Shown in pieces: positions 3,984 through 6,857 of a stretch of DNA of 64,000 bases (the stretch's first letter is position 1; every line of letters starts with the position of its first letter). The position numbers and the translations under genes are program-made. Under the pieces are notes generated by a model. That model was not told the DNA's origin. It did no database searches and saw only the letters and a program-made list of their open reading frames with translations. The stretch comes from Kordia periserrulae. Its GTDB lineage: Bacteria > Bacteroidota > Bacteroidia > Flavobacteriales > Flavobacteriaceae. The DNA lies in the NCBI RefSeq assembly GCF_003054265.1, contig NZ_QBKT01000002.1, forward strand, positions 124,001 to 188,000, given 5' to 3'.

Positions 3984-6857
3984 ATGCCACTAACCATTGA
4001 AAAGCAAGACGCCATTTTTATAGATTTTTCTTCCGATAATATTCAAACGGGCTTACTGAATCTGTGTTTGCCACTTATAAACTCTACTGTTGAAGAACTA
4101 AAAAAAAGATCGAACACGCGATTTACAAATCGTTTTGTGAACTCACATGAGGTTGTCATTTATAATTTATTGGGAAGTCTACTGACATTATCACACAAAA
4201 CACTGATTTCGAGTTACAAGTTTTTGAAAAAGAAAGGGCTATTTCCAGAAGCAACTGAAAATGAGCGCTTAAAATCGTTTAGCGATCACTTAAAAGAACC
4301 CGAAATTCGTTCGTTTATATTAGAGCAATATCCATTACTGGAAAAATGGCTTATCAACGAAGCAAGTGTTTGGTTAAAACAAACCTGTAAATTGGCGGAA
4401 CGACTTGAAAAAGATTATAAAATCATTCAAGAAAAGTTTTTCAATAATGAGGCGTTGGGAGAAATTGATTACATTACCTACGGCATGGGCGACAGGCATC
4501 GCGGTGGACAATCAGTAGCGATGATTACATTTCAATCGGGTAAAAAACTTCTGTACAAACCTCGCAACTTAGCTATTGACATACATTTTAGGAACTTTTT
4601 AAATGAAATAGACAAAGATGTACAATTAGGATTCATCACTCCAAAACTTATTCAATTTGAAACCTATGGTTGGGTTGAATTTATAGCATATACCTCATGC
4701 ACGAAAGTTTCTGAAATTAACGATTATTATGAACGAATGGGAGCGTATTTGGCAGTTCTCTACACGCTAGAAGCAACAGATTTTCACTACGAAAATATCA
4801 TTGCACATGGCGCGCATCCTGTGTTAATTGATTTAGAATCGTTTTTTCATCCATACTTTCCAACAGAAGGAACAGAAACCAATGAAGCTACCAATCAATC
4901 TGTATTGCGAACAGGACTTTTACCGAGCAAATCAGCACCTGTAGAAGGCGCTACGGATATTAGTGGACTTACCGATGTAGAGCAAAAAGAAGGATTGTTG
5001 CCCAATATGATATTAAAAATGGAAGGTGACAATATAGAATACGTGCGAGATAAAGGAGTTTTGCTAGGCGGAAATAATATTCCAATCCTTAATGGTGAAA
5101 AAGTGTCTATTTCGAAAAAGCACATGCCATATTTTAAATCAGGTTTTAAAAAAACATATAACTACGTTGTAAAAAACAAAGAAAAAGTAAAAAAAGAACT
5201 GCTCAATTTTGCTAACGATGAAGTGCGTGTTTTGTTTAGAAATACGGTGGCGTATGTGCATCTATTAGAAGAAAGTACACATCCTAAAATCATGGAAAGC
5301 GTTGAAAATGCACAAGAACATTTTAATATTTTGGCTGAGAAAATTAGAGTCAATAAAATTGCAAAACACTTTGTGCCACACGAAGCTGCTAGTTTAATGA
5401 AACGCGAAGTTCCACTATTTACGACCAAAGTAAATTCTCGCCATTTATGGGTTGAAGAAGATGTGTATTTAGAAAACTTCTTTGAAAGTACAGGAATTGA
5501 AACGGTATCAAACCGTATAGATTTGATGTGTGAAGCAGATTTAAAACGTCAACTTTGGATTATTGATGCTTCCTTTGAAATCAATGTTTCTGAAGAACAT
5601 ATCATACCAGAAAACAAACGAATCAATCCAAGAGAAGCTAAAGTTACGCCAACGCAAAAAGAACTGCTCGACGAAAGTTTGAAAGTAGCAAACTATATTG
5701 AAAATACAATCCATCTAACGAAAGACTCATGTAGTTGGTTGGTGTTTAAACCTATAAATTTAGAAGGAACTTCATATAGAATAGCCGAATCGTTTTACGA
5801 TTTATTCAGCGGAATGCCTGGAGAAATTCTCTATTTTGCCTATTTGTATGAAATTATGGGTGATGAAAAATTCAAGAAAATTGCTGTCAATGCTGTTACA
5901 TATTTACAAGAAAAACTACAAAATTCGAAAGATGCTATCAACGTATTAGGTTTTTACACAGGCTGGGGAAGTATTATTGACTTATACACAAAACTTGCAA
6001 TATTGTGGAAAGATGATTCGTATTTAGAAAAAATAGAAAAACTTTACGAAGAAATAGATTTTGAGGCATATTTAGAAAAAGATCAAGATTTTTCTCTAGT
6101 AAAAGGAGCTGCGGGATTTATGGTGGCAAACATCAACTATTATAATCAAACCACTTCAGCAAAAGCCTTGGAGTTGGCTGAAAAGTCAGCTAGGTATTTA
6201 CTGAATAAAGCCCAAAAAACAGACGATTATATTGCTTGGAAAATCATTAGTAAAGTACCAATCAGTGGGCTTTCGCATGGTGCTTCGGGGTTTGCACTTG
6301 CGTTTGCAAAATTATACAACGCTACAAAAGATGACTCTTATCTAACAATTGTTGAAAAAATCCTTAATTACGAAAAAACACTATTTGTAGAAGCACAGCA
6401 AAATTGGCAGGATTGTCGCGATATCATCACACAAACTTTTCCTAATCAAATCATGTGTGCAACCACTTGGTCACATGGAGCAGCCGGCATCGGTTTGGCA
6501 CGATTGGAAATGTTGAAACTCGGAATTCCTTTTTCAAACCTAAAAGAAGATTTGGAAATCGCATTACAAACAACACTAAAAAACGGCTTTGGAGGAAAAC
6601 ATTCGCTCAGTGCAGGAGATTTTGGCAATCTTGAATTGCTACTGCAATATGCCACGTACTATAAAGATGAAAACGTGATGCATCAATTGCAAAATATCTT
6701 ACGCTCTCTTATGGACGACATTTCTGAAAATAGTTGGAAAATTGGAACAAAACGAATTCAATCTTTAGGTTTAATGACAGGAGTTACGGGAATTGGATAT
6801 CAATTTTTACGAATGGCATATCCAAACAAAGTACCTTCGTTATTAGTTGCTTCTTAA
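3984..6857 (+). CDS. lanM: Class II lanthipeptide synthetase (LanM) with zinc-ligand-less cyclase domain
   Basis: A 957-residue bifunctional enzyme. The N-terminal half is a DUF4135 dehydratase that phosphorylates and eliminates Ser/Thr. The catalytic set is visible: D170 and H172 in GMGDRHRGG, K192 in YKPR, D266/H268/N271 in TDFHYENIIA, D283/E285 in IDLE, R415 and T421 (same spacing as CylM R506/T512). The C-terminal half is a LanC-like cyclase with the GLSHG motif (H765) and (alpha/alpha)6-type repeats. The usual zinc ligands are absent: W829-S830-H-G replaces WCHG, and S876-A877-G replaces CHG or CCG. The surrounding motif residues (AAGIG, GDFGNLELL) are intact, so this is a site-specific loss rather than decay. 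Loss of zinc ligands is known in class III cyclases, where rings form without zinc. The gene is preceded by the precursor and followed 11 nt later by a membrane protein. Confidence 0.93.
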   Translation: MPLTIEKQDAIFIDFSSDNIQTGLLNLCLPLINSTVEELKKRSNTRFTNRFVNSHEVVIYNLLGSLLTLSHKTLISSYKFLKKKGLFPEATENERLKSFSDHLKEPEIRSFILEQYPLLEKWLINEASVWLKQTCKLAERLEKDYKIIQEKFFNNEALGEIDYITYGMGDRHRGGQSVAMITFQSGKKLLYKPRNLAIDIHFRNFLNEIDKDVQLGFITPKLIQFETYGWVEFIAYTSCTKVSEINDYYERMGAYLAVLYTLEATDFHYENIIAHGAHPVLIDLESFFHPYFPTEGTETNEATNQSVLRTGLLPSKSAPVEGATDISGLTDVEQKEGLLPNMILKMEGDNIEYVRDKGVLLGGNNIPILNGEKVSISKKHMPYFKSGFKKTYNYVVKNKEKVKKELLNFANDEVRVLFRNTVAYVHLLEESTHPKIMESVENAQEHFNILAEKIRVNKIAKHFVPHEAASLMKREVPLFTTKVNSRHLWVEEDVYLENFFESTGIETVSNRIDLMCEADLKRQLWIIDASFEINVSEEHIIPENKRINPREAKVTPTQKELLDESLKVANYIENTIHLTKDSCSWLVFKPINLEGTSYRIAESFYDLFSGMPGEILYFAYLYEIMGDEKFKKIAVNAVTYLQEKLQNSKDAINVLGFYTGWGSIIDLYTKLAILWKDDSYLEKIEKLYEEIDFEAYLEKDQDFSLVKGAAGFMVANINYYNQTTSAKALELAEKSARYLLNKAQKTDDYIAWKIISKVPISGLSHGASGFALAFAKLYNATKDDSYLTIVEKILNYEKTLFVEAQQNWQDCRDIITQTFPNQIMCATTWSHGAAGIGLARLEMLKLGIPFSNLKEDLEIALQTTLKNGFGGKHSLSAGDFGNLELLLQYATYYKDENVMHQLQNILRSLMDDISENSWKIGTKRIQSLGLMTGVTGIGYQFLRMAYPNKVPSLLVAS

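Follow-up and report, generated by a model that had tools for sequence, protein, structure and literature searches.

A class II lanthipeptide synthetase of Kordia periserrulae that lacks the cyclase zinc ligands, and its relatives

In the lanthionine cyclases of classes I, II and IV catalysis is attributed to zinc, and the reason why class III enzymes manage without it is unsettled. A gene of the flavobacterium Kordia periserrulae raises the question of how, if at all, a class II synthetase closes thioether rings once its metal ligands are gone. The window analysed here is a stretch of 64,000 nucleotides (assembly GCF_003054265.1, contig NZ_QBKT01000002.1, positions 124,001 to 188,000), in which a gene for a lanthipeptide precursor (LanA) is followed by a gene for a synthetase (LanM) with a substituted zinc site. 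On balance we lean towards the view that this enzyme dehydrates its substrate normally and closes the rings in a metal-free pocket, and that the product would be a mersacidin-like peptide.

The altered zinc site and its relatives

The LanM gene is a single uninterrupted frame, and its product is by model a class II synthetase, of a zinc-less variant with neither a Cys-Cys-His (CCH) nor a Cys-Cys-Cys (CCC) triad (Table 1). The original prediction that all three zinc ligands are replaced is borne out by the codons and by alignment with LicM2 (6st5), which shows WCHG and SLCHG where the Kordia enzyme has Ser830, Ser876 and Ala877. The retention of His765 and the surrounding cyclase motifs in an unbroken frame, also noted there, agrees with the continuous translation and the motif alignment, in which W829, H831 and the GxxG motifs are likewise kept. 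From the mapping of motifs we take His765 to correspond to His212 of NisC, which serves as an acid-base residue and not as a zinc ligand. The predicted fold of residues 565-957 has a mean predicted local distance difference test score of 94.7, with LicM2 as its best structural match (VIA-align). The catalytic residues of the dehydratase domain fall in invariant alignment columns, and counterparts of CylM Asp252, His254, Arg506 and Thr512 are present, paired by spacing and alignment (elimination residues of CylM from passages of PMC4550811).

Concern that re-sequencing might restore TGT or TGC at 6471 and 6609 is answered by two orthologues of the same genus from other assemblies, both also altered. 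Orthologues at 94%, 76% and 62% identity, with replacements of their own, exclude both an error of sequencing and a recent mutation. A scan of the genomes of 84,980 species yielded 94 loci that were confirmed, and the analysis used the best 80 as ranked by likeness to the K. periserrulae LanM; the zinc-less share among them is thus not a population frequency. Together with the K. periserrulae enzyme these make 81 LanMs, of which 51 have a CCH triad, 12 a CCC triad and 14 an altered one, and four (L080, L086, L087 and L089) are unalignable at the ligand sites and were dropped before the counts below; L061, with a broken frame, was left out of trees and identity pairs and is counted within the 51 CCH and 63 zinc-type LanMs. 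Twelve of the 14 altered triads belong to K. periserrulae and 11 other loci, here called the zinc-less clade. The replacements differ: S/S/A in Kordia sp. TARA_039 (L004/L029, 94% identity), A/S/F in K. aestuariivivens (L005/L027, 76% identity), A/T/F in a Flavobacteriia metagenome-assembled genome (MAG), A/T/M in three near-identical Saprospiraceae-like MAGs, A/L/S in Lysobacter telluris, S/I/F in an Epilithonimonas and two Chryseobacterium (the Chryseobacterium trio), and S/C/F in Bacteroidota bin211, where one ligand Cys is kept. With near-copies set aside (L030, L031 and L034 at 91-95%; K. periserrulae and L029), the 12 members amount to about seven lineages.

The remaining two altered LanMs are cyanobacterial (S/C/N and S/S/C) and are placed inside the CCC group in trees. 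In contrast to the clade, the S/S/C enzyme, from Nostoc (L071:5017-9883), has Asp in place of His765 and lies downstream of GG-leader peptides without Cys in the core; it represents a separate loss of ligands that fits dehydration only. Sampling of the family at an E value of 1e-60 found a zinc-less LanM in one of 397 genomes, that of K. periserrulae itself; in a sample of 395 genomes from the phylum, TIGR03897 matched at the same threshold in nine and above its cut-off in six, K. periserrulae included. A search of plasmids for closer relatives found none, all 192 matching records being below 60% identity and the best at about 32%.

A 96-row tree of the cyclase domain places nine of the 12 zinc-less LanMs in one clade among CCH enzymes, with a Shimodaira-Hasegawa-like approximate likelihood ratio test (SH-aLRT) value of 100, and ten class III, two class IV-like and three LanMbC-like rows are all distant from it. 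When the tree is limited to CCH and zinc-less LanMs (62 rows), all 12 are united (SH-aLRT 97), and an approximately unbiased test on the dehydratase, with a chosen set of 33 rows, does not reject a single clade (p 0.0715). The simplest reading of these results is one loss of ligands, two being possible. Kinship with class III or LanMbC is ruled out by the motifs and the cyclase tree.

Proposed ring closure in a pocket without metal ligands

In the mechanism that we propose, the DUF4135 domain, to judge from its intact catalytic residues, would phosphorylate and eliminate Ser and Thr of the LanA core, and the dehydrated core would move to the LanC-like domain for closure of the thioether rings without zinc. 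The pocket would still provide His765 and the W-x-H-G and GxxG scaffold, and the task of zinc, which is to lower the pKa of the Cys thiol and to position it, would be taken by other groups, with Glu/Asp614 as the leading candidate. The substrate may help, in that the second residue of its ring motif is Ser, which would become dehydroalanine (Dha), as against mostly Thr in zinc-type relatives. Zinc-free cyclisation, one of the two outcomes that the original prediction had allowed, is the one we favour because the cyclase domain and the ring motif of the precursor are conserved and five of the 12 clade genomes show no other LanC-domain match.

Conservation of the cyclase domain is best seen at matched divergence. 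With dehydratase identity held at 30-40%, mean cyclase identity is 0.411 in 22 zinc-less pairs and 0.326 in 422 zinc-type pairs, which argues that the domain is not decaying. The precursors are similarly constrained. Sequences with [ST]xS[GA][ED]C and a later Cys occur near all 12 clade LanMs (11 fetched loci and K. periserrulae), the ring motif persists across the range from Kordia to Lysobacter, and an alignment of 14 precursors, 13 of them from zinc-less loci and the other from Chitinophaga, shows no variation at the GG, at one Ser and at two Cys. A small open reading frame (ORF) in which [ST]x[ST]x[ED]C follows a G-rich segment is present at 11 of 13 altered loci, that is at all 11 fetched clade loci and at neither cyanobacterial one, as opposed to 22 of 63 zinc-type loci (21 of 63, with the altered loci still at 11 of 13, under a stricter filter on position and strand). 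Under this filter the second motif residue is Ser at 11/11 clade loci and at 2/21 zinc-type loci, one of the latter (L095) being a doubtful precursor. As for the genomes, a PF05147 search found the zinc-less LanM to be the sole LanC-domain match in three Saprospiraceae-like genomes, the isolate L. telluris and bin211, four of these five being MAGs and possibly incomplete.

Residue 614 is acidic in all 12 clade members (Glu in nine, Asp in three) and in none of the 63 zinc-type LanMs, 12 class III/IV, three LanMbC-like or four LanC rows. A screen of 393 columns by 11 residue classes gave two columns at 12/12 in the clade against at most 3/63 in zinc-type enzymes, 614 (acidic) and 815 (aliphatic), and 614 is the sole position with a clean gain of charge. 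In the predicted model it is part of the initial turn of the first inner-barrel helix (model residues 47-61), and His765 and the old ligand sites sit just before three other inner-barrel helices; these helix starts are presumably at one end of the barrel, as in LanC structures. E614 as a replacement base is a hypothesis. The fuller proposal, that a metal-free lanthionine cyclase evolved within class II when E/D614 at the barrel rim replaced zinc as thiol activator and one ring acceptor changed from Thr to Ser, is put forward tentatively, and we hold it to be possible but doubtful. If the full-length tree described below is right, such a cyclase would have arisen on two occasions, each time with an acid gained at this position and a substrate of the same type.

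Several observations weigh against zinc-free catalysis or make this reading less clear. Zinc-ligand mutants of LctM are said, going by the title of Paul et al. 2007, to keep dehydration and lose much of their cyclisation. The acid at 614 was chosen after seeing the data, in a group that may amount to one lineage, and there is no acid at the third ligand place in the clade, unlike in the class III enzyme ThurKC, so that any chemistry would use a different position. The Chryseobacterium trio is unresolved beside the nine-member clade in the 96-row cyclase tree, is placed elsewhere by the full-length LanM tree, and is also parted from the others in the dehydratase tree, with weak support (37 and 66), which clouds the reading as one clade. 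In close Kordia pairs cyclase identity is 0.74 against 0.79 for the dehydratase, and the ratio of nonsynonymous to synonymous change (omega) between K. periserrulae and L029 is 0.103 in the cyclase against 0.060 in the dehydratase; the cyclase thus diverges somewhat faster, and a slight relaxation is possible. One zinc-less LanM (L033:5955-8825) has one Cys at the ligand sites and a Ser aligned to dehydratase Lys192. Finally, the other seven clade genomes carry further LanC-domain matches, three of them in K. periserrulae.

The main rival to zinc-free catalysis is that the LanM only dehydrates, its cyclase domain serving as a scaffold to hold the substrate, and that the rings close unaided on a pre-organised, Ser-rich core after Dha has formed. 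Dha is more reactive towards thiols than dehydrobutyrine, and the prevalence of Ser at the second motif residue would suit this account, which we judge unlikely though quite conceivable. The first motif residue is nevertheless Thr in most clade precursors, and a zinc-type system of Chitinophaga also has Ser at the second place, so that Ser alone is not tied to the loss of zinc. A scaffold role has a precedent in CcaM, whose zinc-independent cyclase domain is needed for dehydration while no rings are formed (passages of PMC10676384), but His765 is kept in all clade members and would not be required of a mere scaffold. It is also improbable, in our estimation, that a metal is bound in the pocket by a different set of residues, for instance E614, C811, H831 or H765. 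E614 and (in 8/12) C811 are new in the clade, and H831 and H765 are present; however, C811 is absent from the Chryseobacterium trio and L033, and H831 is found in most zinc-type LanMs as well. Nor does the suggestion that a nearby cysteine holds the zinc survive, since the residue in question, numbered C826 in the original prediction, is C825 and is not conserved in the clade.

A separate zinc-bearing LanC might close the rings in trans, as the original prediction had allowed in naming another enzyme. The three further LanC-domain matches of K. periserrulae, the stand-alone LanC, its zinc motifs intact, that 10 of 11 Kordia genomes carry, and the LanB and LanC genes beside the LanM of L070 all speak for this, but the five genomes, L. 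telluris among them, that show the zinc-less LanM alone make a general LanC acting in trans unlikely, and the stand-alone Kordia LanC, which adjoins HopA1-type and APH-type genes, is also found in genomes without a detected zinc-less LanM. We consider this explanation quite improbable. The slightest credit goes to a product that stays linear (dehydrated, with Cys free or disulphide-bonded) or to a system that is dying. Loss of the ligands itself would be in keeping with a linear product, as are the dehydrated products without lanthionine obtained from LanMbC (passages of PMC10676384), but the ring motif is retained throughout. Against both possibilities stand the LanA sequences of the two Kordia orthologues, in which identity is 97% and 89% and the Cys motif is preserved, and an omega well below 1 in both domains for K. 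periserrulae and L029, whose synonymous change is unsaturated.

Precursor, neighbouring genes and other loci

The LanM start lies 73 bases beyond the stop codon of LanA, on the same strand. A zinc-type system with a similar precursor occurs in Chitinophaga tropicalis (L040), where a CCH LanM stands beside the core SGGWVCTISGECNGGSCCNPFTSR, near to Kordia SAGWICSVSGECWGFSCNPFNRK, which suggests that the zinc-type and zinc-less enzymes make a similar product. With the mersacidin-type model TIGR03898 the Kordia peptide scores 15.4 bits, below the cut-off of 23.5, and only the Chitinophaga peptide passes (43.4 bits). The SVSGEC of Kordia would fit the lipid II-binding pattern TxTxEC (passages of PMC7268733) if Ser may stand in for Thr. 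In one further locus a precursor ORF (L075:5907-6158) holds the core twice (GSGYINTVSGECNSSGRSCWKALKD repeated) and adjoins single-core copies.

Table 1. Features of the lanA-lanM locus in the window
Feature	Position	Strand	Remarks
LanA precursor, 64 aa	3716..3910	+	leader end ...VVRGG; core AEDSDSAGWICSVSGECWGFSCNPFNRK; three Cys
LanM, class II lanthipeptide synthetase, 957 aa	3984..6857	+	TIGR03897 773.7 bits (cut-off 304); PF13575 and PF05147
Dehydratase domain DUF4135, residues 116-481	4329..5426	+	D170, H172, K192, D266, N271, D283, R415, T421 present
Cyclase domain LANC_like, residues 605-954	5796..6845	+	
Glu614, acidic residue common to the zinc-less clade	GAA 5823..5825	+	
His765, conserved cyclase His	CAT 6276..6278	+	in 63/63 zinc-type LanMs and every clade member examined
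Cys811	TGT 6414..6416	+	in 8/12 clade members, 0 zinc-type LanMs
Cys825	TGT 6456..6458	+	not conserved across the zinc-less clade
Ser830, first former ligand position	TCA 6471..6473	+	in W829-S-H-G; LicM2 alignment
Ser876-Ala877, former ligand positions 2 and 3	AGT 6609..6611, GCA 6612..6614	+	in HSL-S-A-G; LicM2 alignment
Membrane-like protein, 211 aa	6869..7504	+	directly downstream of LanM; no Pfam match

Upstream of the LanA-LanM pair are gyrA and a gene for a tetratricopeptide repeat protein, and the gene for the 211-aa protein is followed by NlpC/P60, thiolase and 7TM-HD genes. Counterparts of the 211-aa protein follow LanM in L028 and the two Kordia orthologues, with 70-93% identity among the four. 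Another family of small membrane-like proteins lies near the zinc-less LanMs of Chryseobacterium and Epilithonimonas (L075:11956-12462, L070:5888-6397 and L105:5778-6284, one of them weakly DoxX-like) and has no clear similarity to the first. The window shows neither an exporter nor a protease gene adjacent to the pair, and matches to C39 peptidases are located in other parts of the genome; in the Saprospiraceae-like cluster LanM is followed by a C39-type exporter and an HlyD-like gene, and Chryseobacterium JM1 has a C39-type exporter.

Elsewhere in the K. periserrulae genome, the stand-alone LanC (L134:8856-12250, G000:C10) is followed by HopA1-type and APH-type genes, an order of genes reminiscent of class V lanthipeptide systems. 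A second locus (L133:1503-8806, G000:C3), likely a proteusin-type cluster, has the gene of a DUF4135-only protein of 512 aa next to a glycosyltransferase-like gene, together with five small ORFs whose long leaders end in AGG. The LanB and LanC genes of L070 (9794-14245) have their own precursor and come directly after the zinc-less LanM. At L105:10945-13416, perhaps a graspetide cluster, six short GG-leader peptides, most with ends of the SLFSDIE type, precede a gene whose match to MvdD pre-ATP-grasp is weak.

Comparison with known systems

The remark in the original prediction that no such LanM had been described holds in so far as a search of mainly open-access literature found no description of the clade; zinc-less DUF4135 enzymes of other kinds, on the other hand, have already been published. 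Published passages on Kordia report a lanthipeptide cluster in K. antarctica (PMC7477175) and a proteusin cluster (PMC10734526), without detail there on a zinc-less LanM. A survey tabulates 47 predicted peptides for 'D-Unk' synthetases, which have DUF4135 with an undefined cyclase triad (PMC11251773); this is a survey category, its passages contain no description of the present clade, and 'Kordia' is absent from the main text. CA_C0082 of Clostridium acetobutylicum is a shortened LanM-like Agr effector without the zinc motif (passages of PMC10301443), whose homologues have 670-728 aa, lack the dehydratase residues and follow agr operons, whereas the Kordia LanM is full-length, has an intact dehydratase and is paired with a LanA gene; no agr genes were present among the Kordia LanM neighbours examined.

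The likeness to LanMbC (CcaM, carnazolamide) is closer, in that LanMbC too combines DUF4135 with a LanC-like domain devoid of zinc ligands and likewise comes from Flavobacteriia. LanMbC is zinc-independent, dehydrates only and acts with a YcaO protein, and CcaM itself forms no lanthionine rings (passages of PMC10676384). By contrast, YcaO (PF02624) was matched in none of the 12 clade genomes (and in five of 14 genomes of a control set), which rules out a YcaO partner for the zinc-less LanM. In addition, the His765 and W-x-H-G motifs of L127-L129 are unalignable and their position in the cyclase tree is distant; these enzymes are called LanMbC-like by length and neighbours, not by name, and an adjoining YcaO is not confirmed for them.

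Class III enzymes offer another point of reference. On the Kordia LanM the class III model NF038151 scores 79.9 bits against a cut-off of 575, with no kinase or lyase match, and class III LanKC differs from it in dehydratase architecture, in motifs (PYLGxGS and PGLFxG among its rows) and in a separate place in the cyclase tree. ThurKC, of class III, nevertheless has a metal-free LanC fold that still forms rings, its ligands being replaced by Ser, Phe and Asp, with Asp771 at the third ligand place as the proposed base (passages of PMC10604976). The Kordia enzyme resembles it in having a LanC fold without zinc ligands and Ser at the first ligand place. In comparison with zinc-dependent LicM2 and CylM, it has all three ligands replaced and an acidic residue 614. 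Except for the metal ligands, the class II pocket is nearly complete in the clade, and since Chitinophaga has a zinc-type LanM beside a very similar core, the two together offer a natural comparison with and without zinc in which the role of the metal is directly testable. A zinc-less LanM could moreover serve as a metal-independent tool for ring formation.

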